64,000 bases of DNA from Syncephalis fuscata (taxonomy: Eukaryota; Zoopagomycota; Zoopagomycetes; Zoopagales; Piptocephalidaceae), in assembly GCA_025786725.1 (NCBI GenBank), contig JAHLTZ010000055.1, positions 1-64,000 of the forward strand, written 5' to 3'. The position numbers and the translations under genes were made by a program. Below the pieces are notes generated by a model. The model did not search any database. It was not told the origin of the DNA and saw only the letters and a list, made by a program, of their open reading frames with translations. Below, one piece after another: positions 14,843-53,613 of the stretch (positions are counted from its first letter, which is position 1; each line of letters starts with the position of its first letter).

Positions 14843-16779
14843 TTAAGGAGTAATTATAGCAACATTTATATACTTATACATGTTTGCAGATATGAATATG
14901 TCATTTGCATATGAAATGGATTTTTCCATTTTTAAATTTAATGGAACTTTACTGTTTGTCTTAAATCTTGCTTAAAATATTATTAGTGCTATGCTCAATT
15001 GATTATCGGAGTAGATAGGATGCGCGGATATATGTGCAACGATGCAATCCAGAATGGTAAAAATATATCTTAGCGCTCAATAAATACTACTTTTATCCAG
15101 ACTTACGAAATAATCAAAATACTTTTATTATGTTAATTGTTACTGAATATATGTTCTATGATAATGAGTAGTTTTGGTGTTAAATGACTTTTATTCTTAG
15201 TGCATTTATTCATTTACTATTAATCTGCTCTATGATGTACCAACATGTTGGGTAGATTGACTTTTATTATTTACACTTCATTTATTAATGAATTAAACTT
15301 TTTTGTTTATAAATATTGACTGACAGGCTCACATCTCACAATCTACGTCATCACATTTCCTTTCTCTTTCTTTACACTTGACAACATATATCCATTGCAT
15401 ATACTTGTACACTCTATATATACCATCTAAATAGTGTTAGTAGTTGAATGACTACTAGTTATGTACAAACACCTTTTACACTATGTCCTTGTATTGCTCT
15501 TTTGTAATCTGACCTCTTTTTATAAATCACCATTACTCTGATCATTATTACTGATACCTTTATTAACACGGTAAGTGCATTTTTTTTGGTTATAGTATGT
15601 TATGTCGCGTATATTCCACTACAGTAATTGTATAAAAAAGCTGTACATACGCACAGTAGCAATATCAGCAATAATACTAGTATAATTTCTGAATAAGCCT
15701 TCAGTACCAGTTTAACAATATGATCTGCTACTGTTCTTACTACTGTACGTGTACAGTTGCTAGCGCAATTGCTGTGTTAATTATATGTGCTGTTATTTCT
15801 TGGCCGATTGCCTTTTTTGCTCTATTCCAGTATTTGAATAATTTCATTTATCAGTATTTCTTGTTAAGCAGCAATATTTGTATGGCGTTGTGTTAAACTT
15901 TTTATTTCTGTATTGCTTTTCCTGATCTAGTACTGTAATTGGCGTTAGTTTTTATGAAGAATTATTGCAGTATATTTTTTATAGTACATTCTACTGGCCC
16001 ATATATAAGACGCGTTATTTTTAACTATTAAGCAGATATTACTATATTTTATTCAATAAAGTATATTCGCAATAAAAGCATAGAAAAAATTACACAAATT
16101 GCAGCGTGTTTATAGTGTGCATTTCAAAAAATTACTTTTATTATTAAATAAATCACTATATTTTCTTATTCAATTGCTTGATAATAACATTCGCAGTTAA
16201 TAACAATCCACCACGCCTAAAATTATCAGATAATAAACTTTAACTTTTTTGGTTAAATTATTTGGCATTTGCTTAGCTACCACTTTTACGGCTATTATGT
16301 CGCGTAGATTTAAAGATATTAGTACAGCTGCCTGTACTCATATTGCTGTATTTGATTTAAATAATAAAGGCTTTTTTAAAAAATCAATCTTAATACACAC
16401 TAACAATATTGTCGTAAGTCTAAAAATAAGAATATGTCTTAGATTGCTTTGCATAGATATATTAAGATACTTGTGTAGTACACGCTCACTGTAAATACAT
16501 ACATGATTTACCCATCTTATAATAAAGTATTGGTCTTCACTCTATTTTATTTTATTAATTAATTGGTTGTCTTTTCATGACAACGTATTTGATTTGTTTA
16601 TTTATTTATTTTTATAATATTCTATGCTTTATTGCTATGTTTTATTAAAAAGTGCCTTTATTCTAATTTCAGTATGACATTATTTGGCTATATAATAATA
16701 ATAGCTTTGCTAATATCCATACCAATCTATGTTTATAGCTTACATTATGTAATTATAGATATAGCAATTTGATTGTATA
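14843..16779. other. Intergenic; one half of a dispersed repeat at 16418-16530
   Basis: This is AT-rich sequence with no convincing gene. The piece 16418-16530 is repeated in the same orientation at 22969-23082. An 81-codon open frame at 16249-16494 overlaps this repeat and is probably not a gene. Confidence 0.45.
16418..16530 (+). repeat. Dispersed repeat, copy 1
   Basis: About 113 bases beginning GTCTAAAAATAAGAATATG match 22969-23082 with scattered substitutions. They share the string CTTGTGTAGTACACGCT and a TAATAAA-type end. The copies lie on either side of array gene A. I cannot say whether it is a mobile element or a duplicated gene end. Confidence 0.6.
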
Positions 16780-17035
16780 TAGTTAAGATGGAACCATAAG
16801 TTTATTACTATAAGCTTGCACAGTTGAATAGAAACAACTAGATGCAAAGTTGTTGGCAAAATAATGATTCCATTGATTAAAGACTGGATAAACCAAAGCA
16901 TTGGCCAATACTTGATATAAATAGACTGGACGGTGTAGTTGTCAAATGGCCTTGCTTTTCACCGAATATATACCTATAGTGTATTGGAATAGTGATTTGA
17001 TTGCACTACTAATGCTGATGTCTTGAAACCATCAA
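16780..17035 (-). promoter_or_regulatory. Conserved 3' UTR and poly(A) signal of gene A
   Basis: Downstream of the stop the minus strand carries TTTCAAGACATCAGCATT, GGTATATATTC and further blocks. These reappear in the same order after the stop of gene B (45908-46142). An AATAAA lies at 16801-16806 and its counterpart in B at 45908-45913. The 3' end is better conserved between the two genes than their mature coding parts, so it may carry an RNA signal. Confidence 0.65.
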
Positions 17036-20000
17036 TTATACTGTATTTACAAATAAATATATTATATGCCATATAATTAATGCATAGCCAGTCAATATAT
17101 AATGCTACTTACAGCCTATTATTATTAAGTTGTTGATACACATGGTGCATAACATGCAATTAGTGAGTAATCAATTAGTATACAATACAACTCACAATAT
17201 TCTAATGTTGAGTTGTTTATGGATAAAATACATAGTATATAATTAGTGCATAATCAATTAATACACAGTACAACTTACGCTCTATTAATATTAATTTGTT
17301 GATATACATAATATAAGATATAAAATTAATGTATAATCAATTAATACGCAACACAACTTACTGCCTATTATATTAAGTTGTTAATGCATAAAGTAAATGG
17401 CACATAATTAATGTATATTTAGTTACCATATAATAATACTTACAAGCTATTAGTATTAAGTTATTGATACACACAATACATAGCATGTGATTAGTGAGTA
17501 ATCAATTAATATAAAATGCAATTTACAATACTCTAATATTAAGTTGTTGATACGCAATACATAATATATGATTAGTGAGTAACCAGCTAATATACAATAT
17601 CACTTACCCCCTATTAATATTGAATTATTGATGCACATAGTAAATAGCATGTGATTAGTGCATAGTCAGTCAATATGCAATACAACTTACTGCCTATTTA
17701 TATTAAGTTATTGGTACATACAGTACATGACACATAATTAATGTATAATCAATTAATATACAATGCCACTTACAATCTATTGTATTAAGCGATTATTACA
17801 ATCAATAAATAGCATAGTCAATATATAGTTAATTAGTATACAATACAACTTACTAGCTATTGTATTGGGCAATAGATACAGTTAATAAATAGCATAATTA
17901 ATGTATAGTTAGTTAATATACAATAAAACTTACAAACTATTAATATTAAATAATTGATACAATTATTAAATAGTATAGTTAGTATATATTCAGTTAATAC
18001 ACAAGACTACTTACCAGCTATTAATATTAAATAATTAGTATAATCAGTAAATAACATATAATTAGTGAATAGTCAGCTAGTATACAATAAAACCTACATT
18101 CTATGAACATTAAATAATTAGCACAATTAGTAAATAGTATAGTTAATATATAGTCAGTTACTATACAATAATACTTACTAGCTATTAATATTAAACAATT
18201 ATTACAGTCAATAAATAGCATAGTTAATATATAGACAGTTAATATACAATATTACTTACGATCTATTAATATTAGATAATGAGTATAGCCGATAAATAAC
18301 ATAGTTAATGTATAGTCAGTTAATATACAATATCACTTACCCCCTATTAATATTAAATAATTGGCACAATCAGTAAATAGCATAATTAATATATAGTTAG
18401 TTAATACACAATACCGCTTACCCCCTATTAGTATTAAATAATTGGTATAATCAGTAAATATTATAGTTAATGTATAGTCACAGCTAATATACAATATTAC
18501 TTACTAACTATTAATATTAAATAATTGGCACAATCAGTAAATAGCATAATTAATATATAGTCAGTTAATATACAATACCACTTACCCCCTATTAACATTA
18601 AATAATTGGTAAGATTAGTAAATAGTATAGTTAATGCATAGTTAATTAATATACAATACAACTTACGATCTATTAATATTAAATAATTGATATCAGCAAT
18701 AAATAGCATAATTAATGTATAATCAAATAATATCCAATACAACTTACGAACTATTAATATTAAATAATTGATATCAGCAATAAATAGCATGATTAATGTA
18801 TAGTTAGTTAATACACAATACCACTTACGGGCTATTAATATTAAATAATTGGTAAAATCAGTAAATAGTATAGTTGATGTATAGTCAGTTAATATACAAT
18901 ACAACTTACCGCCTATTATATTAAACAATTGATACGCACAATAAACAATATACAATTAGCCAATGATCAATTGATATGCAATATAACTTACAATCTATGG
19001 CATTAAGTTGTTGATATACACGGTGCATAGTATATAATTAATACATAGTCAGTTAATATACAAAACAACCTACTGTCTATTATATTAAGTTATTGATACA
19101 CACAATACACGATATATAATTAGTCAGTAGTCAATTAATATACAATACAACGGGGGGACGTTGCTAGCCCAGTTGGTAAGGCAGCGTCTCCCGAGCTGAA
19201 GGCTCCGGGTTCAAACTGAGGTTTGAACCAATCCTTAAGTGGAAAATCCCCCCCCCAGTTTTCTCTAGTTAACAAATTGCAAACCAGAACCCAATAAGTA
19301 GGTCCGGAAACAAGACCTTGGCCAGAATAGCCGAGGAAAACCCAATTGGGACCAACTTCAAGAGAATAGTGCTGTGTAGCACCATTTAAAGGAAGATGGC
19401 CTCCGTATAAAATCTATATGGACCAGATTTTACGCAAAAATGTGACAGTCCACCCGTTAAAAGTTTGGAAAAGTCCAAATATAGTGGGAAGCAGCGCAAA
19501 TTCTTTAATTATGCGCAGCGGGGGCTCACAAGCTCTTCAAAATAAAATAAAATAAATAATATACAATACAACTTACCATCTATGGCATTAATTTATCGAT
19601 GTACGCAATACATGGTATATAGTTAATTTGTAAGCCAGCAACATACAATACAACTTACAACCTATTAGTATTAAGTTATTGATATACACAATACACGATA
19701 TATAATTAGTCAATGTTCAATTAATATATAATATAACTTACATTCTATTAGTATTAAGTTATTGATATACATGATGCATGATATAAATTAGTTTATAGTC
19801 AGTTAATACAAAATACACCTTACCCTCTATGGCATTAAGTTGTTGATACACACAATACATGGTATGATTAGTATATGACCTATTGATATACAATATTACT
19901 TACTGCCTATTATTATTAGGTCATTGATGCACAGTGTATAACATGCAATTAGTGAATAATCAATCAATATAAATACAACTTACATTGCTCTAATATTAAG

Positions 20001-21127
20001 TTATCGATGGATGCAGTACATGATACATAATTAGTGTATGTTCTATTAATATGTAATGCAACCTACCAGCTATTGATATTTATTTGTTAATGCACACAGT
20101 GTATAGTTAGTTAATATATAATAATACCGCCAACCGAAATGAATAAGGAATATTGGAGACGACGAGTGATTGAGAAGAAAAGATGCTGTTAAAAGACGAA
20201 CGAGCAATGTCAATAGAAGAAAAGAAAGACGTAGAGATATCAAGGCAACAAAAAACAGAAGGTAGTGACGAGAGTGATATGGCAATGGAGAACGTGGAAA
20301 TAACAGTCACAAAATATTAACCAAAACAAAATAGAAAGGTGCAGACAAGTATAAGCGCGTTTGAAATCAGCAATCCAAAAAGTAAGGTAATGGGTGCAGC
20401 GCAGAGTAAATGGAGTCAGATAGAAAAGCCCGGTCAAAGACAATAATAGTATTAAGAAAAAAAAAGAAAATAAAATAAGATAATAACAATTATATAGTCA
20501 ATAATAGGCAATAAGAACAAGTACAATGATTCCAAATGGCCAACCCATACCGGATGCAGTAGAAAGAAGCGAAAATACGAAGCAGATACTGAGAAATGAA
20601 CAAAACAAGCACAGCAAGAAGGAAAGTCATGAAGAAAGTGAAACAGCAATAGCCAGCAATTAGATATTACCGAGTGTAAAAAGGTCCTGTAACAAAGGTC
20701 AAAGCCAGTAGAGTCATAGACAAACAATACATTCGGGGCCATATTAAATGGAGCACTGGCAGAGTGTCAATTAATATAGCGGCTTTAGTGTGAAATTGAT
20801 AGGACTCGGCTTCATACGAAAATATGGCGGTTCACTCGGTTTCAAAAACGTTACGTTATTTAGTAAGAACTGAGAGACAGTGCAAATTTGTAATTATGTG
20901 TAGCAAAAATACACAAGCTCTCCAAAATGAAAATAAAAATAATATACAATATCACTTACGATCTATTATAATTATTGGTTAAAAATACTGTTAGTAAACA
21001 AATACTGTTATATTTATTGTTATTGCAACATACCACGGCGAACTAAGGCTGGTTTAGCGTCCACCATGGCTGTACTAGCTACAATAGCCACGACAATGGT
21101 GCAAACGACGGCAATGGAAAGCTTCAT
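17036..21127 (-). CDS. Array gene A: secreted six-cysteine peptide encoded by 33 micro-exons of 3-6 nt
   Basis: Exon 1 (21127-21034) codes a 31-residue leader: signal peptide (MKLSIAVVCTIVVAIVAS...) ending LVRR, then one base of the next codon. Micro-exons, all flanked by AG and GT, have low-coordinate ends at 20960, 20067, 19984 (6 nt), 19904, 19824, 19742, 19659, 19577, 19074, 18992, 18910, 18829, 18748, 18667, 18586, 18505, 18422, 18341, 18260, 18179, 18098, 18015, 17934, 17854, 17774, 17691, 17608, 17527 (6 nt), 17444, 17362, 17279, 17196 (6 nt) and 17113. The last exon begins at 17040 and gives two bases plus TAA (17036-17038). Joined, they encode 37 residues without a stop. Cysteines fall at mature positions 5, 8, 12, 27, 32 and 36. 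Donors are GTATGT in exon 1, then mostly GTAAGT. The two CX3C motifs could fit a helical hairpin. The function is unknown: effector, antimicrobial peptide, toxin-like peptide and signal are all possible. Confidence 0.88.
19136..19572 (+). mobile_element. tRNA-derived SINE with perfect 16-bp target-site duplication
   Basis: The element is 19152-19556 (405 bp). Its head carries pol III promoter boxes: A box TAGCCCAGTTGG at 19163-19174 and a B-box-like GGTTCAAACTG near 19208. The body is unrelated to the array, and the tail is (AAAAT)n. The 16 bases TAATATACAATACAAC are present on both sides (19136-19151 and 19557-19572), as expected from target-primed reverse transcription. It sits in intron 9 of gene A in antisense orientation. 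The cloverleaf is not intact, so it is not a working tRNA gene. Confidence 0.85.
20112..20955 (+). mobile_element. Probable truncated LINE-like element sharing its 3' end with the SINE
   Basis: An insert of about 812 bp (20128-20939) splits intron 2 of gene A. Its last about 100 bases (GCAAATTTGTAATTATG, then ACACAAGCTCTCCAAAAT and an AAAAT-rich tail) match the 3' end of the SINE at 19495-19556. That is the usual relation between a SINE and its partner LINE. The flanks carry a diverged 16-bp duplication (20112-20127 against 20940-20955, 13 of 16 identical). The remaining sequence has no open frame that I recognise, so it is old and 5'-truncated, or a longer relative of the SINE. Confidence 0.55.
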
Positions 21128-21261
21128 GGTGATATTAACTTGTTAAGACAAACAAATAAAAGAGATAGTAGAGTGTGGTTGGTATAGAGTGGTAGGTAGT
21201 GGGTGTATAGCAAGAAGTAAAGTGTGATGATGATATTGCAGTTGGTTGTGTGTATTTTGCA

Positions 21262-21272
21262 GGCTATTTAAA
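21262..21272 (-). promoter_or_regulatory. TATA-like element of gene A
   Basis: The minus strand reads TTTAAATAGCC about 140 bases ahead of the start codon. The same string stands about 120 bases ahead of the start of gene B (53728-53738), in flanking sequence that is otherwise only partly conserved. This marks it as the likely core promoter of both genes. Confidence 0.6.
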
Positions 21273-21448
21273 CTTACGGCTATGCTGAGGTACTACTATA
21301 CTGTTGTATACGATATATACCATTGATGTGTAGCATGAACCAATAAAGCAATTCAGGTGATGATCTGAAATGCGCATGCACCAATGAATTCATGGCGTGA
21401 CAGCATGCTTCCCAGTTTTGATTTCAACCTAACCAGTTTTGATTTTAA

Positions 21449-21916
21449 CCTGTCCAGTCTTTACTTCAATCTGTTAATCATTTGCACGAGTACTGTAACG
21501 GTATTCATAATACAGTACGTGTGCGATAAAAATAGATATATTGATTTGTATTTTGTTACACGGTCTATTTGGTAAAAACAAGTATATTGTTTGGCTTTGT
21601 AAAAACGATGGTGGTGCTTTTGCTGTTATTTCTACCGATTCGGCCCTCAATATCTGCATGCATACAAAATAGCGCACAACCTGCCCGGTCTTTACTTCAG
21701 TTTGCCAGTCATTTGCACAAATGGCATAACAATATTAATAATTTAGTAATATGGGATAAAAATAAACATACTAGCCTGTATTTTTTGTTACACGGTTTAA
21801 CTATTTGGTAAAAACAAGTATATTGTTTGGTTTTGTAAAAACGATAGCGGTGCTTTTGCTGCCATTTCTACCGATTTGGTCCTCAATATCTGCATGCATA
21901 CTAAACAACGCACAAC
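21449..21916 (-). repeat. Two direct repeats of about 232 bp upstream of gene A
   Basis: The blocks 21449-21679 and 21680-21916 are tandem copies. Both contain GTCTTTACTTCA, TTTGTTACACGGT, GGTAAAAACAAGTATATTG and CTCAATATCTGCATGCATAC. The duplication starts about 180 bases upstream of the TATA-like element and could be a duplicated upstream regulatory module. Open frames at 21384-21811 on either strand are by-products of this repeat. Confidence 0.7.
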
Positions 21917-23338: not shown

Positions 23339-24070
23339 TTATATTTGACCGGATAAACTAAGCGATTCAATAACTATAATAGCAATAAGAAGCGATACAA
23401 CGCCTACAACATTGACAATTCCCCATCGTTTGCTTTCCTTATGCTTTGAGAATGTCCAAAAAGCGCCAATGACCCATAGTGGAGGTACTAAAAATCCAAA
23501 CATAAATGTGAACATTGGGAATGGGTGTCGTCGCCAAAAAGACTTCTTATGAGCAATTGCTACTTGTATATCTTGAAAGTCGCTTGGCGTTTCTTGCTGA
23601 TACATTTCCTTGTGGTACATTTCTCGTCTGTTTAAATTTGAGAAATTATTAGAATAGCTTTCTGAATATGGATCGGCTATGTCACCATAGAAGTAACGGC
23701 CTTGCACGTGCTGTGCTGGAACAGCAGGAGCTGGCAACTCTGGCGCATAAGGCGGCGGCGGTGGTGGCGGCTTAAAATGGGTATTCTCTGCGTACTTGGG
23801 TGTCTCCATCTTGCGCGTCTTGTCGTATGCGTTGATCCCGAGGCCTATATTCGCGGATGACGGCTCAGCAACTACTTGCGAATAGAGTCGTTTTCGATAT
23901 GTATCATGGCTTGGCGTGCTACCTTCCCTACCACGACCATTATGTTCCTCGCCATCAATTCCTTTTGGTGTTGTTCGTCGCTTCTTTTCTGTGCCTTCAA
24001 ACGTACTCATGTCGGCGATATGAGCTTTAGGCGTTGTGTAAGTATTACCTTTATCGAATGTAGATGTCAT
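23339..24070 (-). CDS. Proline-rich two-TM membrane protein, family member 1
   Basis: I do not recognise the family by name. It is intronless with 243 residues. Residues 1-180 are polar and disordered, with a PPPPPPPYAPELPAP block at about 101-118. Two membrane helices close the protein, about 187-208 (PMFTFMFGFLVPPLWVIGAFW) and about 219-240 (WGIVNVVGVVSLLIAIIVI), with a short basic loop (SKHKESKRW) between. The same helix-loop-helix end, including the PLW.(I/F)G.(F/Y)W motif, recurs in the two genes upstream on the same strand, so this is a tandem family. A long N-terminal tail with Pro motifs could recruit SH3, WW or trafficking proteins, but this is inference. Confidence 0.75.
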   Translation of the reverse strand: MTSTFDKGNTYTTPKAHIADMSTFEGTEKKRRTTPKGIDGEEHNGRGREGSTPSHDTYRKRLYSQVVAEPSSANIGLGINAYDKTRKMETPKYAENTHFKPPPPPPPYAPELPAPAVPAQHVQGRYFYGDIADPYSESYSNNFSNLNRREMYHKEMYQQETPSDFQDIQVAIAHKKSFWRRHPFPMFTFMFGFLVPPLWVIGAFWTFSKHKESKRWGIVNVVGVVSLLIAIIVIESLSLSGQI

Positions 24071-24818
24071 GCTTTTATGGACTAATTAATATTATTGTAA
24101 TAAGAAATAAACAAGGAGAGATGACATCGTTTATAATAAATCTCTGACATTTTGGAAATTTGTAGCTGATGTTTCAAATTTATGATGCACGACAAATTTT
24201 TGAATACAATGCCCGATACTACTAAAGTAATATATATATAATTAAGATGGCTGTACTTAGGTTGCTTTTAGGCAAAAAATACTATATGACAATATTTTCA
24301 AAAAAATAATACTTAATTCTTGAAAGAGATACAAAAAGATTATAATTAGTTTTATGAAAATGGGGCGAACAATTAACTTTATGTTTAAACCAATGCGTTT
24401 ATTATCATTACCTTAATTGTAATAAATGATAAATTATTATGGAAATAAATTAACAATTACATCATGCAGTCGCGCATAATATGCGATTAAAAGTTTTAGC
24501 TATTTTTTATTGCTAAAATTATTTATTAAAATCCAATTATTTTTACGTAACTAAAAAAACACCTAAAGTATGGTAAAATGCATCTAATTCTTGAACGTAA
24601 AAAGAATTAAATAATTTATAATTACCGCATTTAATAATATTAATTACTACATTATCTAAAATGGTAATGTAGTATTTGGAATGGAATTGAGTAATAAACA
24701 AATTTTCATCACATTTTATTATACTTCAGGTGTTTATAATGACTTCAGTATAATAAATCACCTAGTCGACACTAAACAATATTGCTGGTTATTAATTGTA
24801 GAATTGGTTAGCATTGAC
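24071..24818. other. Spacer between two-TM genes 1 and 2
   Basis: AT-rich sequence with no gene seen. It serves as the 5' flank of gene 1 and 3' flank of gene 2. Confidence 0.6.
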
Positions 24819-25986
24819 TTACATTGCCGCAATTATTATAGCCAAAAGTATAACGGTTAGAATGTTAATGGCACACATATATGACCAGTATCTTTCTCGG
24901 GGGATTTTGGAGCGTATCCAAAACAAACCAAATACCCAAAGCAATGGAAAGAGCCACCCAAAAAGCCAGAATACCATAACAAGAGGAATTGTTGTATTGT
25001 TTGAAATTGAAACTGTATCTCCTTGTCGTCTCCAGCGGCTATCACGGAGCGCCTCTTCATCTACTGGATCCTCCACTATGGTAAACCTTCCATGAGAAGC
25101 CACTGTGTATGTGCCCGGAGGCAAGCTTGTGTACACGGGACTTGGAGTGTAGCCAGGCGGTGGTAGCTCGGGGCTATACGGCCGATTAGTAGTTTTTGGT
25201 GGCGACAAGTGATAATGATACTCAGGAGGTGGAAACATAGTGGCTTCTAAGCCTGTGTTGCTATTCATAGCATGTGCTGGAACCGAAGCATCAGGTTTTC
25301 TGATGTGGCTATGTCGGTGAGGAATAGCAGGAGGTGAACTTGCATGACTATTCACGTTATTTAAGTCTGTATGTTGCATTGAAGTGCCAATGTTTGCCGT
25401 ATGACCTATGGAGTCACCGCAGCCATTCTGACGCTGTGGACTTGTAATCATATACGCCGGTGGTGGCGACCCACTACGTGAAATTTCACTTATATTGGTA
25501 TTGGATTGGCGAGCAGAAGTATGTTCATTAAGTGATCCAGTGTCTGTTGTTGGCTGTCTTGTTCTTATAGCTACATTACGAGTTGTTTGCTATCCAATGA
25601 AATTAAATTTAAAATATATAGTTAACATTTTACTGCTGTCTAATTATAACAAATTGCTTTTAGCTTAATATATTTACTTCGGGTTGACCGTGTACTACTT
25701 GAGGGACATTATCGATGGAATTGTCATGTTTACTGCTTTTATCGGATGGCGATTGTTCTGAAGAGGCCCTTGATATTATATCAAACTGGCTCGAATCGCT
25801 GCTATGTGATATAGCTGAATTCTCGATTTCTGCCACAGCCTGACTATTAACAACTCTTGGCTCGGGAACCTCCAAGTTAACATTGAGAAATCCATTTTTG
25901 GCTTGAGACAATATAGAGGAACTTGATAATGTAGAATCTTCTTCCTGCTCATCAGGCGACCTCTTGTCTTCACTGTTGTTATCCAT
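24819..25986 (-). CDS. Proline-rich two-TM membrane protein, family member 2
   Basis: Two exons fit one frame: 25986-25678 (103 codons, acidic and Ser-rich) and 25589-24819. The donor is GTAAAT, the acceptor GGATAG, and the phase is 0. The second exon is open well upstream of its first ATG (25451), which is why I joined the exons. The product has about 359 residues. It has a Ser/Asp-rich start, Pro-Tyr motifs (SPPPAY, YSPELPPPGY, FPPPEY) and two C-terminal helices. The first contains FWLFGWLFPLLWVFGLFW and the second INILTVILLAIIIAAM, separated by RSKIPRERYW. PPxY-type motifs are candidate WW-domain ligands. The stop TAA overlaps a possible donor (GTAAGT at 24822), so a further 3' exon is possible. 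Confidence 0.72.
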
Positions 25987-26066
25987 TGCGTATCAAAGAC
26001 TAAATAAAAAAATACAAAGTAAAAGCAAATAAAGTTAAACAATGTCTTGTTACATTTTTGCTTCAT

Positions 26067-26691
26067 CTACCGTCACACCTTTGTTTCACTTATTGTCGCA
26101 TAACTTACTAGAAAGCCTTAAATTGCTTGCTCAAATGTAAATACTAAATGTTTAGATAGGTACCATAAGAAAAATATAGTGCTTATTTGCTCAATAAAAT
26201 AACAACAGACTATATAATAAAATAAGTTGCGAGTTTAAAATGTTTGAGAAATAAAATAATATTGCGATAATTACAAATACTTTTGTCATGAAACATGTCT
26301 CACGTACAGCTATCTAAGGCTAAAGTTTACGTATTTATTCTTGATGTTGGGTTTGTTTAATTATCAACAAATAACAAACTAGATTATACATTAAAATCAG
26401 GAAGGAATTATTTTATTAGCATTTGCTAATAAAACTTTCAGATAAAATTGCCATTATATCGTGTTATAATCATACTGCTTCTTTGTCATTAAAAATTGAA
26501 TAGCCATAGCAAAAAACTATATAAATAATTTGGTTAATTTGTTTTAAAAAACAACATTAGTTTAAAACTTACCTTCAATACCATGGCAATAGATGGCTAA
26601 AATTCTTACTAGTCAGCCTTCAAAACTACTTTGATTAACTGCCATATCTTTAAAAAACATTAGCCAAATTAATTGGAAGCCATTTACTAGC
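26067..26691. other. Spacer between two-TM genes 2 and 3
   Basis: AT-rich sequence with no coding feature that I can support. Confidence 0.55.
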
Positions 26692-27309
26692 CTACCTGAT
26701 GCCGACGACTATTGAGACGATAAGCGATGACAACGCAAAACAAAAGTTGATCCAGGCCCAAAAGCGCACACGCGAATGGCGAGAAGTTAGCCAGTAACTG
26801 CCGATAAACCATAGGATAGGAAAGCAGAAACCAAAGATAAACAGCCAAAAGGTTACCGGCAAGCCGCAGCAGCCGGGAGCTGATCCTCTTGCGCCTGGAT
26901 TTTCATCTGGATCAAAACCACGCGCTTGCTCCAAATTATTGGGCGTGTTTTCTAACACTACCATCGGCGGTGCCACATGTCCCTTTTCCTTTATATGAAC
27001 GCCTTGTTCTTTGCTAGCGACAACTGGCATTGTGAATGGATGTGTATCTTTTTCTTCGTGTACTTTATCTGGATACAAAGGTGCAGTATATGTATAGTTT
27101 TCTGAGGTGGCTGCATGCTCATTGTCCTTGGATGACAGTTTACTACCATGATCTTCGGCTAGACTGACTTCATCCCAAGGCAAGTGCTTTGTATCCGATT
27201 CCAGTGGTTCTGTTTTATTGATTGCCAAGTATTCATCAACAATCTCCTTTCCCTTAGCAGATTTATTGCTTGGCGCACCAGACGATAATGGGACCATAGG
27301 AATTGACAT
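26692..27309 (-). CDS. Two-TM membrane protein, family member 3
   Basis: It is intronless with 205 residues. The polar N-terminal part (about 1-140) is rich in Lys, Glu and Pro and lacks the long Pro run of member 1. The C-terminal pair of helices is the family signature: PVTFWLFIFGFCFPILWFIGSYW at about 148-170 and INFCFALSSLIVSIVVGI at about 185-203, with a loop TSRHSRVRFWA. It lies on the same strand as members 1 and 2, with spacers of about 0.7 kb, so all three likely arose by tandem duplication. The function is unknown. Confidence 0.75.
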   Translation of the reverse strand: MSIPMVPLSSGAPSNKSAKGKEIVDEYLAINKTEPLESDTKHLPWDEVSLAEDHGSKLSSKDNEHAATSENYTYTAPLYPDKVHEEKDTHPFTMPVVASKEQGVHIKEKGHVAPPMVVLENTPNNLEQARGFDPDENPGARGSAPGCCGLPVTFWLFIFGFCFPILWFIGSYWLTSRHSRVRFWAWINFCFALSSLIVSIVVGIR

Positions 27310-45907: not shown

Positions 45908-46142
45908 TTTATTACTACAGACGTGCATAGCTGAATAGACACAGCTGAATACATGCTTATTAGTAAGATAATGGTACCACCGATTAGAATATGAATAAAC
46001 TGGACATTGGCTGCAACTTGATATATAAATAGGCTGAGTGGCAGCTATCAAATGGTCTTGTTCTTTATTGAATATATACCTAAAGTGCGTTGGGCTAGCA
46101 AATGTGGCTACAATATCAATGCTGATGTCTTGAAAGCAGCGG
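45908..46142 (-). promoter_or_regulatory. Conserved 3' UTR of gene B
   Basis: The minus strand reads TTTCAAGACATCAGCATT right after the stop region, then GGTATATATTC, an ATTTGATAGCTGCCA block and ATTTATATATCAAG, ending in AATAAA at 45908-45913. The order and much of the sequence match the 3' end of gene A. Confidence 0.65.
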
Positions 46143-47263
46143 TTAAGCTATATTATAAATATATGCAATACATGTCATATAGTTAGTGTATAAACTAAGC
46201 ATATAATATCAAGTACGCTTCATTATATCATACTAAACACGCACGATGAATAATATATGTTTAACGTATTGGCAATCAATATACAATGTCACTTACAGCC
46301 TGTTAACACATATTATTCAATAAACATGGCGTATAGTAATTGCTTAGCGTATATTTGATTACTGTACAGTGTCACTTACTAACTATCAATATAAATTATT
46401 GACCACACGCAGTGCATGGTATATATTTAGCGTATAATTGATTAGTATTCAATAGTACTTACCGGCTATTCATACAAGTTATTAAACATGCATATTGTAT
46501 AACATATATTTAATGTATTATTAATTGGTCTACCATGACACCTACCCCCTATCAATAAAAGTTATTAAACGCGCATAGTACATAGAATATACTTGGTATA
46601 TTACTAATTAATATACAATGACACTTACAATCTATCAACAGAAATTATTAAGCATGCAAAGTGTACAACGTATGTTTAACCTATAGCTGATTAACATAAA
46701 ATATAACCTATCAACTATCAATGCAAGTCATTAAGCGCGCATATCACGTGGTTAACGCACATTGACTAATATAAATGCTACTTACAACCTATTAATATAA
46801 GTTGTTAAATAAGCACAGCGTACAACATATGTTAACATATAGTTTATCAATGTGCAATTCCACATACCAGCTATTGATGTCAGATTATCAAACAGACATA
46901 GTGTATCACATAAGTTTAGTGTATATTCAATTGCTATACAATGCCACCTACCATCTATTAATGCAAATCATTAAATATCCAAAATGTATAAAATATGCTT
47001 AGTTCATAGTTAATTAATGTATAACGTCACCTACTAACTATCGATGTCAGATTATCAAACATACAAATTGTATCACATATATTTGGTGTATATTCAATTG
47101 CTATACAATACTACTTGCTATCTATTAGTGTTATTTTATTAAACACACATGAAGGACATATACTTAGTGTATAGTTAGCTGCCATACAATGCCACTTAAA
47201 TCCTATCAACAAAATTATTCAACATACACGGTATATGGATATGCTTAGTGTATGGTCAAATGG

Positions 47264-47456
47264 TGTCGTATTACTATTATGAAGGGGGACTGAGTAATAC
47301 GGCAAGGTAGATAAAACACTAGGATCTTGTAATAAAAGGTTTTTCTTAGGATTGAACTACTTTATTAATAAATGTAAATATTCCAGCTTTTATAGCTGGC
47401 TTGACACATCGATTACGTGGTACCCGTGTACCACGTGTTCTGAATATGTCGCCACA
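47264..47456 (-). repeat. 3' LTR
   Basis: This is the downstream LTR on the coding strand, and it appears identical to 52568-52760. A polypurine tract (GTGAGGGAGTGA, 47457-47468) stands directly ahead of it, as needed for plus-strand priming. Confidence 0.95.
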
Positions 47457-50400
47457 TCACTCCCTCACTAAGTGTCGAACGTCCCGTTGACACATTAAGT
47501 GAATTAGTGGAAAGGTTAGATAATGATATTTGGTTAATTGATATGTTGGGTAATAATAAATGGGCAGGTCGTGTGTGAAGTGGAATTATTCGATCAGCGT
47601 GTTCTGAAAACATTCTTTGTGTTTCCAAATCCTTGAGTCTGTAGTTGACAGCTGACGTTTGTTCTATCACTTTAAAAGGACCTTTCATTCTTTCTTTCAT
47701 CTTTCTCAACTTCGTACCTTTTAGTAGTTGTTCTTCTATCCACACTAAGTCACCTTCTTTAAATGGTTCTTTTCTTCTTCCTTTATTATACCTAGCCGAC
47801 TGCCGACGTTGGGCCGCTTCAATCATTAACTTGGCTCTTTCCCTGACATCATTGAGTCGGAGTTGCAGATCGGTGACGTATTCCTCATATTCTTCTACTC
47901 TCTTATGGAACCGAACTGGAGCCGTTGAAACAGGGCCAACTGCTACTTCTAATGGCTGAGTCGCCTCTCGGCCGAATAGTAACTGAAATGGTGAGTGGCC
48001 AGCGGATGACTGTTTCGTTGTTCTGTATGCAAACAATAGCAGGGGTAGATATTTATCCCAATCTTTTTCGAAATCACTAGTGAACTTAGCGATCATCGAT
48101 GCAAGTGTATGATTAAAACGCTCAACTAGTCCGTCAGTCTGTGGACGTCGTGCGGAGGTAATCCGTCGCTGTATGCCAAGTCGTTTCGCAATACCGGCAG
48201 TTAATCCAGATGTAAAGTTAGTACCACCATCAGTAAGTAGTACACTAGGCATGCCGTGTCTAGCAATAACGTTATTCATCAGGAACTGTACTGTAGTTTC
48301 TGCAGTTGCATCTGGGATAGCAGCGGCTTCAATCCAACGCGTGGTGTAATCACAGCATACAGCTACGTACTTATTACCATGTTCAGACTCAGTAAATGGA
48401 CCCATAAGGTCGATGGCAATAAAGTCGAATGGCTTTTCTGGCACTGGTAGTGATTGTAATAATCCAGATCGTTGGTGTATTCGTCGTATCTTCTGACATA
48501 CTGTGCACGATGTCACATAGTCGCATACATCACTATGCATATTCTGCCACCAGTAGCTCTGACGTAGTCGTTGGTAAGTACGAGTAATACCCAAATGACC
48601 AGCTAATTCTTTATCATGACAATGATATAGAACTATAGGTCGATATTGATTAGGCACAACATCCAACAACTCTGTCATCACATCGCCTTTCATAACCTTC
48701 CTCTTCAACCGACCAGTCACTAGCTCAAAGCGTTTAGCACGTTTTCGTAAAGCACGCCGACTAGCATCGGACATTAGCGTCATATACTCAGCACCTTGTT
48801 GTAAATAAGCATATACATCAGCAGTAGTTAACTCTGTTTGTTGTGCATATACCCATTCTTCTTCAGTTGGTAGCAACGGTGTTGTATTTTCAGCTATGTG
48901 CATTACTTCTTCTACTTTGTCTTGTTCAGCTAGTTCAACTAGTTCGTGCCATGGCAACGGATCTCGTGACAAGGCATCTGCATTGGCATTGGCAGTACCA
49001 CGCCTATATTCGATAGTCGGACGGTATTCCTGTAACTTCAATGCCCAACGGCCAAGTCGACCAGTTGGATTGGGTCGTGACATTAACCAACGTAGAGCTG
49101 AGTGATCAGTGACTACTGTAAATTCACTACCGTATATATAAGGTCGGAACTTCTCTATGGCCCATACAATAGCCATACATTCGCATTCGGTAGCTGAATA
49201 GTTCTTTTGTGCATCATTCAACGCTCTACTGGCATAAGCAATCGGTCGCCATCCATCGTCGATTTGTTGCGATAATACTGCGCCCAAACCGTAAGTAGAA
49301 GCATCAGTTTCAATTCGAAACGGCTTAGATAGTGTTGGATAAGCTAACACAGTATCACTAGTCAATGTAGTGCGTAAATCATCGAAGGCGGTTTGTTGTT
49401 CGTCTGACCACACGAAGGGTGTACCTTTCTTCTCAAGGCGACGAATGGGCTCGGCTCGTTCGGCAAAACGGCTAATAAAGCGTCGATAATAGGATGCAAG
49501 ACCAAGGAAACTTTTACAGCCACGTATATCAGTAGGGCGAGGGAAATTATGCACAGCAGCGACTTTATCTGGGTCTGGTTTAACACCATTAGCATTCACG
49601 ACATGGCCAAGATAGGCTATTTGTTGTTGGCCAAAGTGACATTTGCTACGTTTAAGGCGAAGTCCAGCATCGCGTAGACGATTAAAAACTGTTCGTAGAC
49701 GTTGTAGGTGTTCATCAAACGTCCTACCAAATACAATAATATCGTCTAAGTAAACAATACATGAATGCCACTTCAGACCAGCCAATACTTCGTCCATTAA
49801 TCGTTGAAAGGTCGCTGGCGCGTTGCATAAGCCAAATGGCATGACACGGAATTGATATAGGCCAGCATGTGTAACAAAGGCTGTCTTTTCCTTGTCTGCT
49901 TCGTTCATTTGGATTTGCCAATAGCCAGAGGCAAGGTCCAAAGTAGTAAACCAACAGGCACCAGATAACATATCTAGTGCATCATCAATGCGAGTCGTAG
50001 GATATGAATCCTTCTTAGTGGCGTCGTTCAATTTACGATAATCGACACAAAAACGTTCACCACCATCTTTCTTACCAACAAGGACAACTGGAGATGACCA
50101 AGGACTGCGAGATGGTTCAATAATGCCATTCTCAAGCATATCGTTAATGGCTTCAGTTATCTTTTCACGTTGACGGTAAGCAGAACGGTACGGAGGAGTA
50201 TTAATGGGTTTAGAGTCACCAGTACTAATGGTATGGCGAACTCTAGTAGCTGCTTGTGGATTATTCGGATTTACCGCGAATAGATCCGTATATTCCAGTA
50301 ACAGTTTGTTGAGTCGGGCTAGTCGGATGGACTCAGACAGATCTACTCGAGGTAGTTGGGATAGTGCCAATGATACCACGGCATTATCAACTTGCTCGGT

Positions 50401-50940
50401 AGGTCGGATATCCCGTCTTACTAAGTGCTGTTGTAACTTAGAAAGTATCCGGCCATTACGGACTTTTCCAGCCACGGCAACTACATGTATACCGTGCGAT
50501 GGAGTGTTGGACAATTTCATGTCAATGGATTGGCCATCAATAAACAATTTGCCAGCTGCGCAATCAATGCTGGCACCAGCGGCGGATAACCAATCCATGC
50601 CTAATAATACTGGATACGGGGAAGTATCTAATACTATTGCTTTAACCTTCCGAACAACGCTAGCTATTTCGATATCCACCAAGGAGTGGCCACGAGTGTT
50701 AGCGTGTCGGCCATCAGCTAATCTAACGAATGAATCAGTGAACGGGCCTAAGACAAGGCCAATATTTCTACATATAGCGCTAGAAATAACCGTTCGTTCA
50801 GCACCCGTATCAATTAACATCGATACCATATGTCCATTAATCGTTCCATCCTGCAATAATGTGGTAGCGGAAGCAACATTAATTGCGGATATGGTCGATA
50901 AGGGATTTACTTGGGGTGGGACGTCGTTACCCTTACACAT
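47413..50940 (-). CDS. pol: Pol polyprotein of the gypsy element
   Basis: It has 1,175 residues and is intact. The aspartic protease motif LIDTGAERT lies at about 43-50. Reverse transcriptase has VDYRKLN, FRVMPFGLCNAPATFQ and the catalytic YLDD at about 395. RNase H begins at ETDASTYGLGAVLSQ (about 543). The integrase HHCC zinc finger (HLGITRTY... CTVCQ) starts near 770. The DDE core follows, with IAIDLMGP, LLTDGGTNF and TDGLVERFNHTL at about 838, 900 and 937. I see no chromodomain at the C-terminus. The C-terminal end runs about 44 nt into the 3' LTR, so the stop lies inside the LTR. Confidence 0.97.
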   Translation of the reverse strand: MCKGNDVPPQVNPLSTISAINVASATTLLQDGTINGHMVSMLIDTGAERTVISSAICRNIGLVLGPFTDSFVRLADGRHANTRGHSLVDIEIASVVRKVKAIVLDTSPYPVLLGMDWLSAAGASIDCAAGKLFIDGQSIDMKLSNTPSHGIHVVAVAGKVRNGRILSKLQQHLVRRDIRPTEQVDNAVVSLALSQLPRVDLSESIRLARLNKLLLEYTDLFAVNPNNPQAATRVRHTISTGDSKPINTPPYRSAYRQREKITEAINDMLENGIIEPSRSPWSSPVVLVGKKDGGERFCVDYRKLNDATKKDSYPTTRIDDALDMLSGACWFTTLDLASGYWQIQMNEADKEKTAFVTHAGLYQFRVMPFGLCNAPATFQRLMDEVLAGLKWHSCIVYLDDIIVFGRTFDEHLQRLRTVFNRLRDAGLRLKRSKCHFGQQQIAYLGHVVNANGVKPDPDKVAAVHNFPRPTDIRGCKSFLGLASYYRRFISRFAERAEPIRRLEKKGTPFVWSDEQQTAFDDLRTTLTSDTVLAYPTLSKPFRIETDASTYGLGAVLSQQIDDGWRPIAYASRALNDAQKNYSATECECMAIVWAIEKFRPYIYGSEFTVVTDHSALRWLMSRPNPTGRLGRWALKLQEYRPTIEYRRGTANANADALSRDPLPWHELVELAEQDKVEEVMHIAENTTPLLPTEEEWVYAQQTELTTADVYAYLQQGAEYMTLMSDASRRALRKRAKRFELVTGRLKRKVMKGDVMTELLDVVPNQYRPIVLYHCHDKELAGHLGITRTYQRLRQSYWWQNMHSDVCDYVTSCTVCQKIRRIHQRSGLLQSLPVPEKPFDFIAIDLMGPFTESEHGNKYVAVCCDYTTRWIEAAAIPDATAETTVQFLMNNVIARHGMPSVLLTDGGTNFTSGLTAGIAKRLGIQRRITSARRPQTDGLVERFNHTLASMIAKFTSDFEKDWDKYLPLLLFAYRTTKQSSAGHSPFQLLFGREATQPLEVAVGPVSTAPVRFHKRVEEYEEYVTDLQLRLNDVRERAKLMIEAAQRRQSARYNKGRRKEPFKEGDLVWIEEQLLKGTKLRKMKERMKGPFKVIEQTSAVNYRLKDLETQRMFSEHADRIIPLHTRPAHLLLPNISINQISLSNLSTNSLNVSTGRSTLSEGVMWRHIQNTWYTGTT

Positions 50941-50951
50941 CGACGTCCCAT

Positions 50952-52400
50952 TTAGTTTTCCGCCTGTTTGGCATCACCAGCAGGTAGTTTACTGGTTATC
51001 GATGCACGGGCAGTGGCTAAATTTGGACATTGATGCGTGTAGTGATTCGTATCATCACAGAGGGTACAAGGGAAGCGACGTGTAGCTGGCTGTTGTTTGG
51101 GGCGACGGTTATTGCCGGAACGGGTACCTACTTGCATTGCATTGGGTGCCGTCTTGGACACGGACAGAGATTGGTCATTAGTAACAACGTTTATGCTGGC
51201 CTTAGCCGCATGCAGTAACTTATGGGTGTATCTTCCTAATTCAATACTATGACCAACAGATCGAAAGTCATCGATAGAACGGATTCGTAACGAGCGGACA
51301 TTGCTGCGGACGTAGTCGTTAGAACCGATTTTGATCTGTTTCCAAATTTGTCTAGGCGTCCTTTTGGCATTGGTACCAGCTCTTTCAACTCTATCGGCGT
51401 ATTCGAATAATGTTTCTTTGTCGTTTAAGCGAAGTAAGTAAAATTTGTTTTTCAACGCTTCTTTTGGATCACCAGCACACCATTTAATCTCTAACTCCTT
51501 TACTAACGTCGCGAATAGGCCAGGCTGGTACGATTGGACACGCGGCATATTGAGTAGGCACCATGCATTCTCGCGGTCACGCAGACCGTACATCAATCGA
51601 CTGCATTTCGTGGGTTCATCCCATCCTGACAAACCAGCAATCAAGTGGAAGCTACGCAGCCATTCAAAAGGATCCGCTTTAAAATCTAGTTTGTCAATAT
51701 CCATTTTTGGTAGTTTAGTCATCACTTGAGGGACACTCAAGTCGGGTGGCTGTGTGACCACAGGTGGTACAACAGCAACAGGTTCAGGCTGACTATCTGC
51801 AATGGAAGGGAAAGATGAGGTGATGGATGTGGTGTCAGAGTCGTCCGAATCTATGGACGAAATGGACACTCGTCTGTTGATGCGTGTGGGTGTGGTGTTG
51901 TTGTCAGGTGGACCAAGTTCTGCAATTGGGGCAGTGCCAGGCGTTTCTACAGTGAACTGTGGAGCTGGTGTGTAGGTAGGAATTGGAGGATTTGGGTCTC
52001 CTGGGTTGAGTTGTCGAAAAGCGTGTACCAGCGACATTGTCAATTGAGCTGTTTGGTGAACAGTGAGTCCGTTGGTAGGATTTAGAATGGTGCGTAATAA
52101 GTTATCTACTAATGCTTGACTAGCGACGGGTACAGCTACCGTTAAGTTATTAGTATCAGTAGGTGTATCGATTGGAGTAGCGAATGTCACCGGACGAGTA
52201 CTAGTAATATTTTCTTGTTGTTGAACCGTAGCTATTGGTTGGTCAACTTGGACGACTTCATCAACGGTTTCTTCTGTTTCAGTTGATGCTACTTCATCAG
52301 TACCGCTTACTTCGGACATATTGTCGGGTACCGGCTCGTCAGTAGCCATTGCGGCTGCTGAGTTACGCGTACTACGACCAGAACGGGTTATACTAGACAT
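50952..52400 (-). CDS. gag: Gag polyprotein of the gypsy element
   Basis: It has 482 residues from the ATG at 52400. A Thr/Ser/Pro-rich acidic N-terminal half (residues 1-220) precedes the capsid-like part (FDLKADPFEWLRSF-type, here DKLDFKADPFEWLRSFHLIAG). The C-terminus has a zinc knuckle, CTLCDDTNHYTHQC, matching CX2CX4HX4C, for RNA packaging. The stop lies 9 bases before the pol ATG, and the pol frame is in the -1 register and open upstream of that ATG. Pol may therefore be made by frameshifting or reinitiation near GGAAAACTAA. Confidence 0.95.
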   Translation of the reverse strand: MSSITRSGRSTRNSAAAMATDEPVPDNMSEVSGTDEVASTETEETVDEVVQVDQPIATVQQQENITSTRPVTFATPIDTPTDTNNLTVAVPVASQALVDNLLRTILNPTNGLTVHQTAQLTMSLVHAFRQLNPGDPNPPIPTYTPAPQFTVETPGTAPIAELGPPDNNTTPTRINRRVSISSIDSDDSDTTSITSSFPSIADSQPEPVAVVPPVVTQPPDLSVPQVMTKLPKMDIDKLDFKADPFEWLRSFHLIAGLSGWDEPTKCSRLMYGLRDRENAWCLLNMPRVQSYQPGLFATLVKELEIKWCAGDPKEALKNKFYLLRLNDKETLFEYADRVERAGTNAKRTPRQIWKQIKIGSNDYVRSNVRSLRIRSIDDFRSVGHSIELGRYTHKLLHAAKASINVVTNDQSLSVSKTAPNAMQVGTRSGNNRRPKQQPATRRFPCTLCDDTNHYTHQCPNLATARASITSKLPAGDAKQAEN

Positions 52401-52547
52401 GGTTATTAACAATGAACAATGAACAATGAGATGATTTGATGGAAGTGAGGTACGAGAATGAATATGAATGTTACGATGGTAGAGACTATCAAATAGTGTT
52501 ATATCTGTAGTATTGGGACTACGCGAACGGGCAGTTTATGGGCAAAC

Positions 52548-52566
52548 TGCCCAGGTCCTCCACCAA
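52548..52566 (-). promoter_or_regulatory. tRNA primer-binding site of the gypsy element
   Basis: Just inside the 5' LTR the coding strand reads TGGTGGAGGACCTGG. It starts with TGG, the complement of the tRNA CCA end, so it would pair with a tRNA ending GGTCCTCCACCA. I cannot name the tRNA without a tRNA set. Confidence 0.65.
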
Positions 52567-52567
52567 T

Positions 52568-52760
52568 TGTCGTATTACTATTATGAAGGGGGACTGAGTA
52601 ATACGGCAAGGTAGATAAAACACTAGGATCTTGTAATAAAAGGTTTTTCTTAGGATTGAACTACTTTATTAATAAATGTAAATATTCCAGCTTTTATAGC
52701 TGGCTTGACACATCGATTACGTGGTACCCGTGTACCACGTGTTCTGAATATGTCGCCACA
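52568..52760 (-). repeat. 5' LTR
   Basis: This is the upstream LTR and contains the element's promoter. An inverted palindromic stretch (GGTACACGGGTACC type) lies near 52720-52740. The primer-binding site follows at 52567 and below. Confidence 0.95.
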
Positions 52761-53613
52761 AATGGTATACAATACTACTTACCAACTACCCATGCATGTT
52801 TAATAACAGGCACCATAAATGATACATATATATATGTTTAGTGTATAGCCAAATGGTCTAAAATGTGCCACTCACAATCTATTAATACAAGCCAACAAAC
52901 AAACACAATGATAAAATATGTTTAGCATTGAATTAATCAATATACAATACAACTTACCATCTATTGACGTTAATTTAGTAAACATACACAATATACGGCA
53001 TGTGTTAGCATATTGTTAATTAATATACAATGTTGCCTACAATCTATTAACACAAGATGTTAAATATAAACGATACATAACATATTTAGTGTATTTCTAC
53101 TTGATATAAAATGTAACTTACTCCCTATTAATACAGGTTAATGAACATGCACGATGCATAATATATAGCTAGATTGTAGTCGATTAATATACAATTCACT
53201 TACAATCTATTAATGCAAGTTATTAAAAGCACATAGCATATGGCACATGTTTAGTGAATGGCTATTGCTATGTAATGGCACTTACAATCTATTAATAAAA
53301 ATCATCAACCACACACAATGCATAGTATATGGTTAGAATATATTTAGTTAATATGCAATGCTACTCAACACCCTCTAATAGAAATTATTAAAAACACAAT
53401 GTATAGAATATGTTTAGCTTATAATTGATTGGTTACAGTGCTAATTACCATCTATCAAAGTTAATTTAGCAAATAACAGCTTTTAGCTAAATGAATACTT
53501 GATTGGTTTAATTGCAACATACCACGACGAACTAGAACCGGTTTAGCGTCCACTATGGCTGTATTGACCATAGTTACGAGGACGGTGCAGACAACAGCAA
53601 TAGAAAACCTCAT

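Follow-up and report, generated by a model that had tools for sequence, protein, structure and literature searches.

The locus treated here raises the question of whether DNA that looks like a satellite can be the coding part of a gene whose exons are the size of single codons. It lies on the minus strand, at 17036-21127, of a 64,000-nucleotide window (the whole stretch that was analysed) from contig JAHLTZ010000055.1 of the Zoopagales fungus Syncephalis fuscata, which has an assembly of 28.95 Mb and belongs to a genus described, in excerpts of PMC6784888, as mycoparasites of moulds. Our answer is that this stretch is very probably a normal protein-coding gene whose division into exons and introns is extreme, and in which the mature peptide would be put together from codon-sized phase-1 exons. 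The joined exons of this gene and of its relatives are predicted to encode secreted mini-proteins, most of them rich in cysteine, that resemble in kind those of uninterrupted paralogs.

The gene model was read directly on the minus strand, and the exons were rejoined by script. It consists of a 94-nt exon 1, 33 micro-exons and a terminal exon. Thirty micro-exons are 3 nt and three are 6 nt long (108 nt in total, between 20962 and 17113), and all 33 have AG on the 5' side and GT on the 3' side, as the preliminary description had stated. The open frame that it had drawn from the 31-codon exon to a TAA two bases into the terminal exon was reproduced; the predicted coding sequence measures 207 nt, and its spliced product has 68 residues and no internal stops, and runs from the signal peptide through RR and DPEQCKECYDNCALHRVRGDPKSVSNCREYSCKQYCL to the stop. 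The array is very AT-rich and is built of tandem units of about 81 bp with higher-order periods. The spacing of 80 to 83 nt given earlier for the junctions needs correction: 32 of the 34 introns measure 71 to 80 nt, and the other two are 890 and 500 nt long and hold inserted sequence. It had also been said that no choice beyond the splice consensus was needed. This is true of the 31 micro-exons that a parser blind to the frame recovers from splice signals, but not of two weak 6-nt exons (donors GTAAAT and GTGAGT), which it misses. The gene and its flanks are laid out as follows.

21128-21680, minus, upstream/promoter stretch, kept in micro-exon and intronless paralogs (upstream plus exon 1, 78% over 672 nt against intronless L024)
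21034-21127, minus, exon 1: 31-codon signal peptide and dibasic RR, ATG at 21127, ends one base into a codon (phase 1)
20960-20962, minus, micro-exon 1, ATC
20070-20959, minus, long intron 2, 890 nt, inserted sequence
20067-20069, minus, micro-exon 2, CTG
19984-19989, minus, micro-exon 3, AGCAAT (6 nt)
19904-19906, minus, micro-exon 4, GCA
19824-19826, minus, micro-exon 5, AGG
19742-19744, minus, micro-exon 6, AAT
19659-19661, minus, micro-exon 7, GTT
19577-19579, minus, micro-exon 8, ATG
19077-19576, minus, long intron 9, 500 nt, inserted sequence with a stretch resembling transfer RNA (tRNA) by eye; no tRNA called
19074-19076, minus, micro-exon 9, ACA
18992-18994, minus, micro-exon 10, ATT
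18910-18912, minus, micro-exon 11, GCG
18829-18831, minus, micro-exon 12, CCC
18748-18750, minus, micro-exon 13, TTC
18667-18669, minus, micro-exon 14, ATC
18586-18588, minus, micro-exon 15, GGG
18505-18507, minus, micro-exon 16, TTA
18422-18424, minus, micro-exon 17, GGG
18341-18343, minus, micro-exon 18, GGG
18260-18262, minus, micro-exon 19, ATC
18179-18181, minus, micro-exon 20, CTA
18098-18100, minus, micro-exon 21, AAT
18015-18017, minus, micro-exon 22, CTG
17934-17936, minus, micro-exon 23, TTT
17854-17856, minus, micro-exon 24, CTA
17774-17776, minus, micro-exon 25, ATT
17691-17693, minus, micro-exon 26, GCA
17608-17610, minus, micro-exon 27, GGG
17527-17532, minus, micro-exon 28, AGTATT, 6 nt; not recovered by the parser (weak donor GTAAAT)
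17444-17446, minus, micro-exon 29, CTT
17362-17364, minus, micro-exon 30, GCA
17279-17281, minus, micro-exon 31, AGC
17196-17201, minus, micro-exon 32, AATATT, 6 nt; weak and not recovered by the parser
17113-17115, minus, micro-exon 33, GCT
17036-17040, minus, terminal exon, coding part: two bases and TAA (17038-17036)
16752-17043, minus, 3' untranslated region (3'UTR) stretch spanning the stop and the sequence beyond it, kept in micro-exon and intronless paralogs (88% over 292 nt against L024)

The open frame of the window gene taken alone is weak evidence, because 5.3% of 100,000 random orders of its 33 exons are open as well. Three results from across the genome uphold the earlier reading, in which codon-sized exons spell the mature product. 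The first is the length of the exons together with the phase in which they are constrained. The pattern TTAATAG-NNN-GTAAGT occurs 1992 times and its reversed-pattern control once, which excludes a chance origin of the pattern genome-wide. Widening the gap behind TTAATAG to 1 to 12 nt gives 2053 occurrences, only 61 more, against 49 in the control, so within chance the exon behind TTAATAG is 3 nt long. A search of the genome with the exon-1 peptide gave at least 150 scored matches among 345 candidates, with E values of at most 3.1e-8 and internal stops in none. Splice signals alone, with AG required, lengths of 1 to 12 nt allowed and the frame unused, were used to parse 26 micro-exon loci, that is, the window gene and 25 fetched ones. 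The 769 exons obtained include 731 of 3 nt, 30 of 6 nt, one of 9 nt and one of 12 nt; with 763 of 769 internal exons falling on these four lengths and with phase 1 supported, the loci fit the general architecture of micro-exon genes, whose coding sequence beyond exon 1 is mostly in phase-symmetric exons of no more than 36 nt.

The second result concerns the introns. Those of up to 100 nt (n = 720) range from 57 to 98 nt and fall into remainder classes of 266, 183 and 271 upon division by three. As intron lengths are not multiples of three and exon lengths nearly always are, the reading frame is kept by the exons and not by the repeat unit. The donors are GT in 750 of the parsed exons and GC in 19, and the GT-AG or GC-AG borders with a GTAAGT-like donor are those of U2-type introns. 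This bears on the idea that the interruptions are cut out of the DNA, as ciliates do by programmed elimination, or that the RNA is processed without the spliceosome. The scrambled genes of ciliates do resemble these very short and very numerous segments, but the GT/GC...AG borders and a donor that follows the common GTAAGT consensus speak for introns, no result obtained here points to DNA elimination in S. fuscata, and we give this idea almost no credence.

The coding tests were done on the phase-1 reading across introns, in which a codon takes its first base from the end of an exon and its other two from the start of the exon that follows. Exon order was permuted within chains 2000 times with composition preserved; the stop test took 613 of the 769 exons, as odd-length chains were dropped and chains were broken at introns of more than 130 nt. 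Phase 1 holds 3 stops in 600 codons, against a shuffle mean of 30.8, and 97 cysteine codons against 49.4; none of the 2000 shuffles was as low or as high, respectively. Stops in the other two phases are at the shuffle level (6 against 6.0 and 52 against 54.6), which rejects phases 0 and 2 as the reading phase. The depletion persists when six similar loci are left out (2 of 435 against 22.5). Among adjacent perfect units genome-wide, the next exon starts with AA or AG, giving TAA or TAG, in 4 of 761 cases after a T and in 339 of 1886 after another base. The Fisher p value of 8e-48 is overstated because near-copies are counted, but the ratio (0.5% against 18%) is secure. The near-copies L009 and L011, both with an early stop, account for two of the four exceptions. 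By these counts, phase 1 is the only phase in which the order of the 3-nt exons shows constraint. An array of this kind could also be a non-coding satellite, with an AG-NNN-GTAAGT box that binds a DNA- or RNA-binding protein and only happens to look like splice sites. The tandem units, their higher-order periods and the AT-richness speak for a satellite. A binding box, however, explains neither the enrichment of cysteine nor a stop depletion that is limited to phase 1, and the latter rules out a satellite without coding. The GC donors, which take the place of GT as in real introns, the signal-peptide exon upstream on the same strand, and the position of the array, between signal peptide and stop codon in a gene that has paralogs without introns, also argue against such a satellite, which we consider extremely improbable.

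The intronless paralogs are the third result. We fetched 13 family members without introns. These have the signal peptide, the stop and the 3'UTR in common with the micro-exon genes, and an uninterrupted mature peptide in between. The similarity to the window gene given above for L024 also extends over the upstream stretch of L037 (83% over 592 nt), and the 88% over the 3'UTR runs from the stop codon onward. A framework of six cysteines, C-x2,3-C-x3,4-C ... C ... C-x3-C, fits 12 of the 13 intronless mature peptides, and the six cysteines are invariant in the 11 that were aligned. The predicted spliced product of the window gene fits it as well, and none of the 100,000 shuffles of its exons does. 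A profile built from 11 of the 13 intronless peptides (L041 and L045 omitted) was scored on 22 of the 26 spliced loci (L011, L023, L027 and L029 omitted). The sum was 99.6 bits, compared to a mean of -16.4 and a maximum of 27.1 in 100 shuffles, and 13 of the 22 loci outscore at least 95 of their own 100 shuffles. The structure predicted for the L024 peptide has short helices and a mean predicted local distance difference test (pLDDT) score of 88.6. A known cysteine-rich peptide family or fold was considered and rejected, as no significant match was found: 11 intronless members compared with Pfam gave six families, each matched by one of the 11 at E 0.01 to 0.98 and none by the first member, an intronless peptide gave a single match at E 0.8 among PDB sequences, and a fold search with the L024 structure gave no match at E 0.001. 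Two micro-exon members, L033 and L035, have predicted products that lack the framework of six cysteines and are proline-rich or contain several dibasic sites; the micro-exon architecture would therefore serve more than one type of peptide.

The inserts of the two long introns of the window gene (19160-19560 and about 20100-20960) are partly alike by eye (GAGCTTGTG...ATAATTA...AATTTGC), and the tRNA-like stretch, also seen by eye, suggests that the insert at 19160-19560 may be a short interspersed nuclear element. ARAGORN calls no tRNA in the 64-kb window, and no known RNA family was matched in 16500-21800. At 23339-27309 there are three tandem minus-strand open reading frames (ORFs) with similar hydrophobic C-terminal ends. 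A second member of the family, which we call gene B, lies further on in the window.

46140-53613, minus, gene B: signal-peptide exon from 53613, 3'UTR motif at 46140
53288-52876 and 47121-46297, minus, micro-exons of gene B, in two groups
47413-50940 and 50952-52412, ORFs of a Ty3-like retroelement that lies between the two groups and splits the gene B array

Several results weigh against the coding reading. Six of the 769 parsed exons break the frame (four of 2 nt, one of 4 nt and one of 7 nt), an in-frame stop is present in 3 of the 26 loci (L009, L011 and L020), and the terminal exon is out of phase in 4 of the 14 loci where one was recognized; this indicates that some loci are dead or misparsed. 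Only 4 of the 26 automatic parses contain the full six-cysteine pattern, with the window gene added once its two weak exons are restored, and 9 of the 22 scored loci (L010, L019, L028, L033 and L035 among them) do not outscore at least 95 of their own 100 shuffles. The closest uninterrupted relative of the full window product has 62% identity over residues 1-67, a good part of which is signal peptide. When the mature parts of two products were searched alone, no uninterrupted copy was matched, an empty answer that is no proof; a near-identical processed copy that could stand in for a cDNA was thus not obtained for these two. Finally, no precedent for the splicing of dozens of consecutive 3-nt exons was found in the open-licence literature. 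The stops and frame breaks, together with the Ty3-like element inside gene B and the two insert-bearing introns of the window gene, would also fit arrays that were once real exons and are now mostly relics, with the intronless paralogs doing the work. Relics would accumulate stops, however, and junction stops are nearly absent genome-wide (the 4 of 761 given above). Moreover, in seven pairs of paralogs the splice sites are better conserved than the drifting interiors of the introns (differences of 0-2.7% at donors, 0-7.1% at acceptors and 1.2-19.6% in the interior). We therefore regard mostly decayed arrays as very unlikely.

If the arrays are working coding sequence, the question is how they arise and change. 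Introns are about 74% identical between neighbours in an array, 69% when far apart in the array and 70% between loci; growth by local duplication would fit. Near-identical pairs of arrays, some of them inverted, were seen at C1:475-478 kb and C1:531-534 kb, and at C2:225-229 kb and C2:244-248 kb, which suggests recent segmental duplication of whole micro-exon genes. Four further arrays were sampled on contig C2; two (L047 and L050) have a divergent signal-peptide exon, and for the other two (L048 and L049) no recognizable one was found within the fetched stretch.

The exons appear to change faster than their surroundings. In 155 matched units of paralogs, none with more than 12 flank differences, the exons differ at 107 of their 465 positions and the flanks at 3.3% of theirs, an approximately sevenfold rate that is an average over few events, because most unit pairs come from a few pairs of paralogs. 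The rate is limited further by L009/L011, where the exons are unchanged (0 of 39) and the introns differ at 1.2%, by L014/L027, where exon change is only 5.7% against 3.3% in introns, and by the units with fewer than four flank differences, in which 13 of 231 exon positions changed. Codon positions 1, 2 and 3 account for 43, 39 and 25 of the differences. As the wobble position also outpaces the flanks (25 of 155 against 3.3%), selection on residues would not be the sole cause, and matched units may not always be true counterparts. Near the array ends of L016 and L017, triplets differ by two or three bases (GCA/ACC, TCA/ACG) while some 140 flanking bases differ at most once. Among the fetched loci the gene structure is all-or-none, either an array or intronless. 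A quick tree of 38 rows of upstream and exon-1 sequence has six label changes between the two forms, of which well-supported branches force two and many forks are open. The two forms have likely been interconverted repeatedly, and such mixing is expected if reverse-transcribed mRNA recombines into the gene or if arrays are gained.

How could such genes be expressed? In the mechanism that we propose, exon 1 would supply the signal peptide and the RR site, the tandem units, each a codon-sized phase-1 exon with an intron of about 78 nt, the mature peptide, and the last exon the end of the final codon, the stop and the 3'UTR. Three nucleotides cannot hold U2AF and U1 at once, so recognition would have to occur across each intron in turn. 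U2-type spliceosomes would thus remove the introns singly, by intron definition, with the 5' exon lengthening by one codon at every step. Such ordered removal may be served by the donor GTAAGT, which is strong, and by the TTAATATTAATAG acceptor, which is conserved. Any exon skipping would lose residues but keep the frame, because every unit is symmetric. Ordered splicing through closely apposed 3' and 5' sites is known from recursive splice sites and from stwintrons; these add no residue at the internal step, whereas the Syncephalis arrays would add one codon per step. Cleavage of a kexin-like type may take place at the RR that precedes the mature part, after which the peptides might be used against or towards the host mould. 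Their role as secreted effectors or antifungal peptides is a guess based on the signal peptide, the cysteines, the family size and the fast change.

The systems that come closest are described here from excerpts of the sources cited. In schistosome micro-exon genes, up to 75% of the gene consists of exons of 3-36 bp that are alternatively spliced (PMC10399815). Like the Syncephalis family, these genes encode small, variable secreted proteins of a parasite, and tiny exons hold a large share of their coding sequence. Unlike them, the Syncephalis family has nearly all internal exons the size of one codon, and these are arrayed in tandem like a satellite, with introns of almost the same length; its cysteine-rich peptides, intronless paralogs and occurrence in a fungus set it further apart. 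A relation in sequence is not expected, and a protein search with one intronless member, not aimed at the schistosome genes, revealed none. The bicycle genes of aphids, which encode effectors with CYC motifs, have about 17 exons on average, and megacycle has more than 100 microexons (PMC9168663). They also form a large, fast-evolving family whose numerous small internal exons share a single phase with few exceptions, but their exons are larger and start in phase 2, whereas the Syncephalis exons are 3 nt long, are constrained in phase 1 only and would give cysteine-rich peptides of 40 residues. Isolated exons of 3 nt or 1 nt, spliced or predicted, are on record for NCAM, Drosophila troponin T, and plant APC11 and VPS55, and lipS of Dactylellina has two 3-nt exons (PMC8042270, PMC5639578, PMC8831610). 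These lie singly between larger exons, whereas the Syncephalis genes have runs of more than 20. The earlier statement that no such gene is known is thus too broad as regards single 3-nt exons and genes rich in exons of 3-36 bp, and it stands for runs of codon-sized exons: a search of open-licence PMC literature found no such runs and nothing on micro-exons in Syncephalis, and a term search of Zoopagomycota genome papers found no passage with intron or exon. As judged from the sequence, the arrays are the far end of a known kind of micro-exon gene, with their splicing deduced.

If transcripts confirm the splicing, these genes would be the limiting case of the split gene, with runs of more than 20 to 40 consecutive one-codon exons and thousands of such exons in one genome, and they would challenge ideas of the minimal exon size. 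They would also be a natural test of the order and fidelity of purely intron-defined splicing, as exon definition cannot work on 3 nt. They would show, too, that gene finders can overlook coding DNA because it looks like a satellite. A protein search with one intronless member returned only five proteins, all named Syncephalis fuscata, compared to at least 150 signal-peptide exons in the genome, as expected if gene finders miss the family. For the fungus itself, one possibility, which we put forward tentatively and think rather doubtful, is that the arrays act as an engine of diversity. Single codons would be added, dropped and shuffled by recombination of the kind seen in satellites, with triplets changing about seven times faster than the flanking introns, in-frame skipping would give many peptides, and reverse-transcribed mRNA would repeatedly fix intronless genes, so that the fungus would evolve its secreted peptides residue by residue through splicing. 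Confirmed splicing would in any case tie intron structure to the rapid change of the peptides that a mould parasite secretes.

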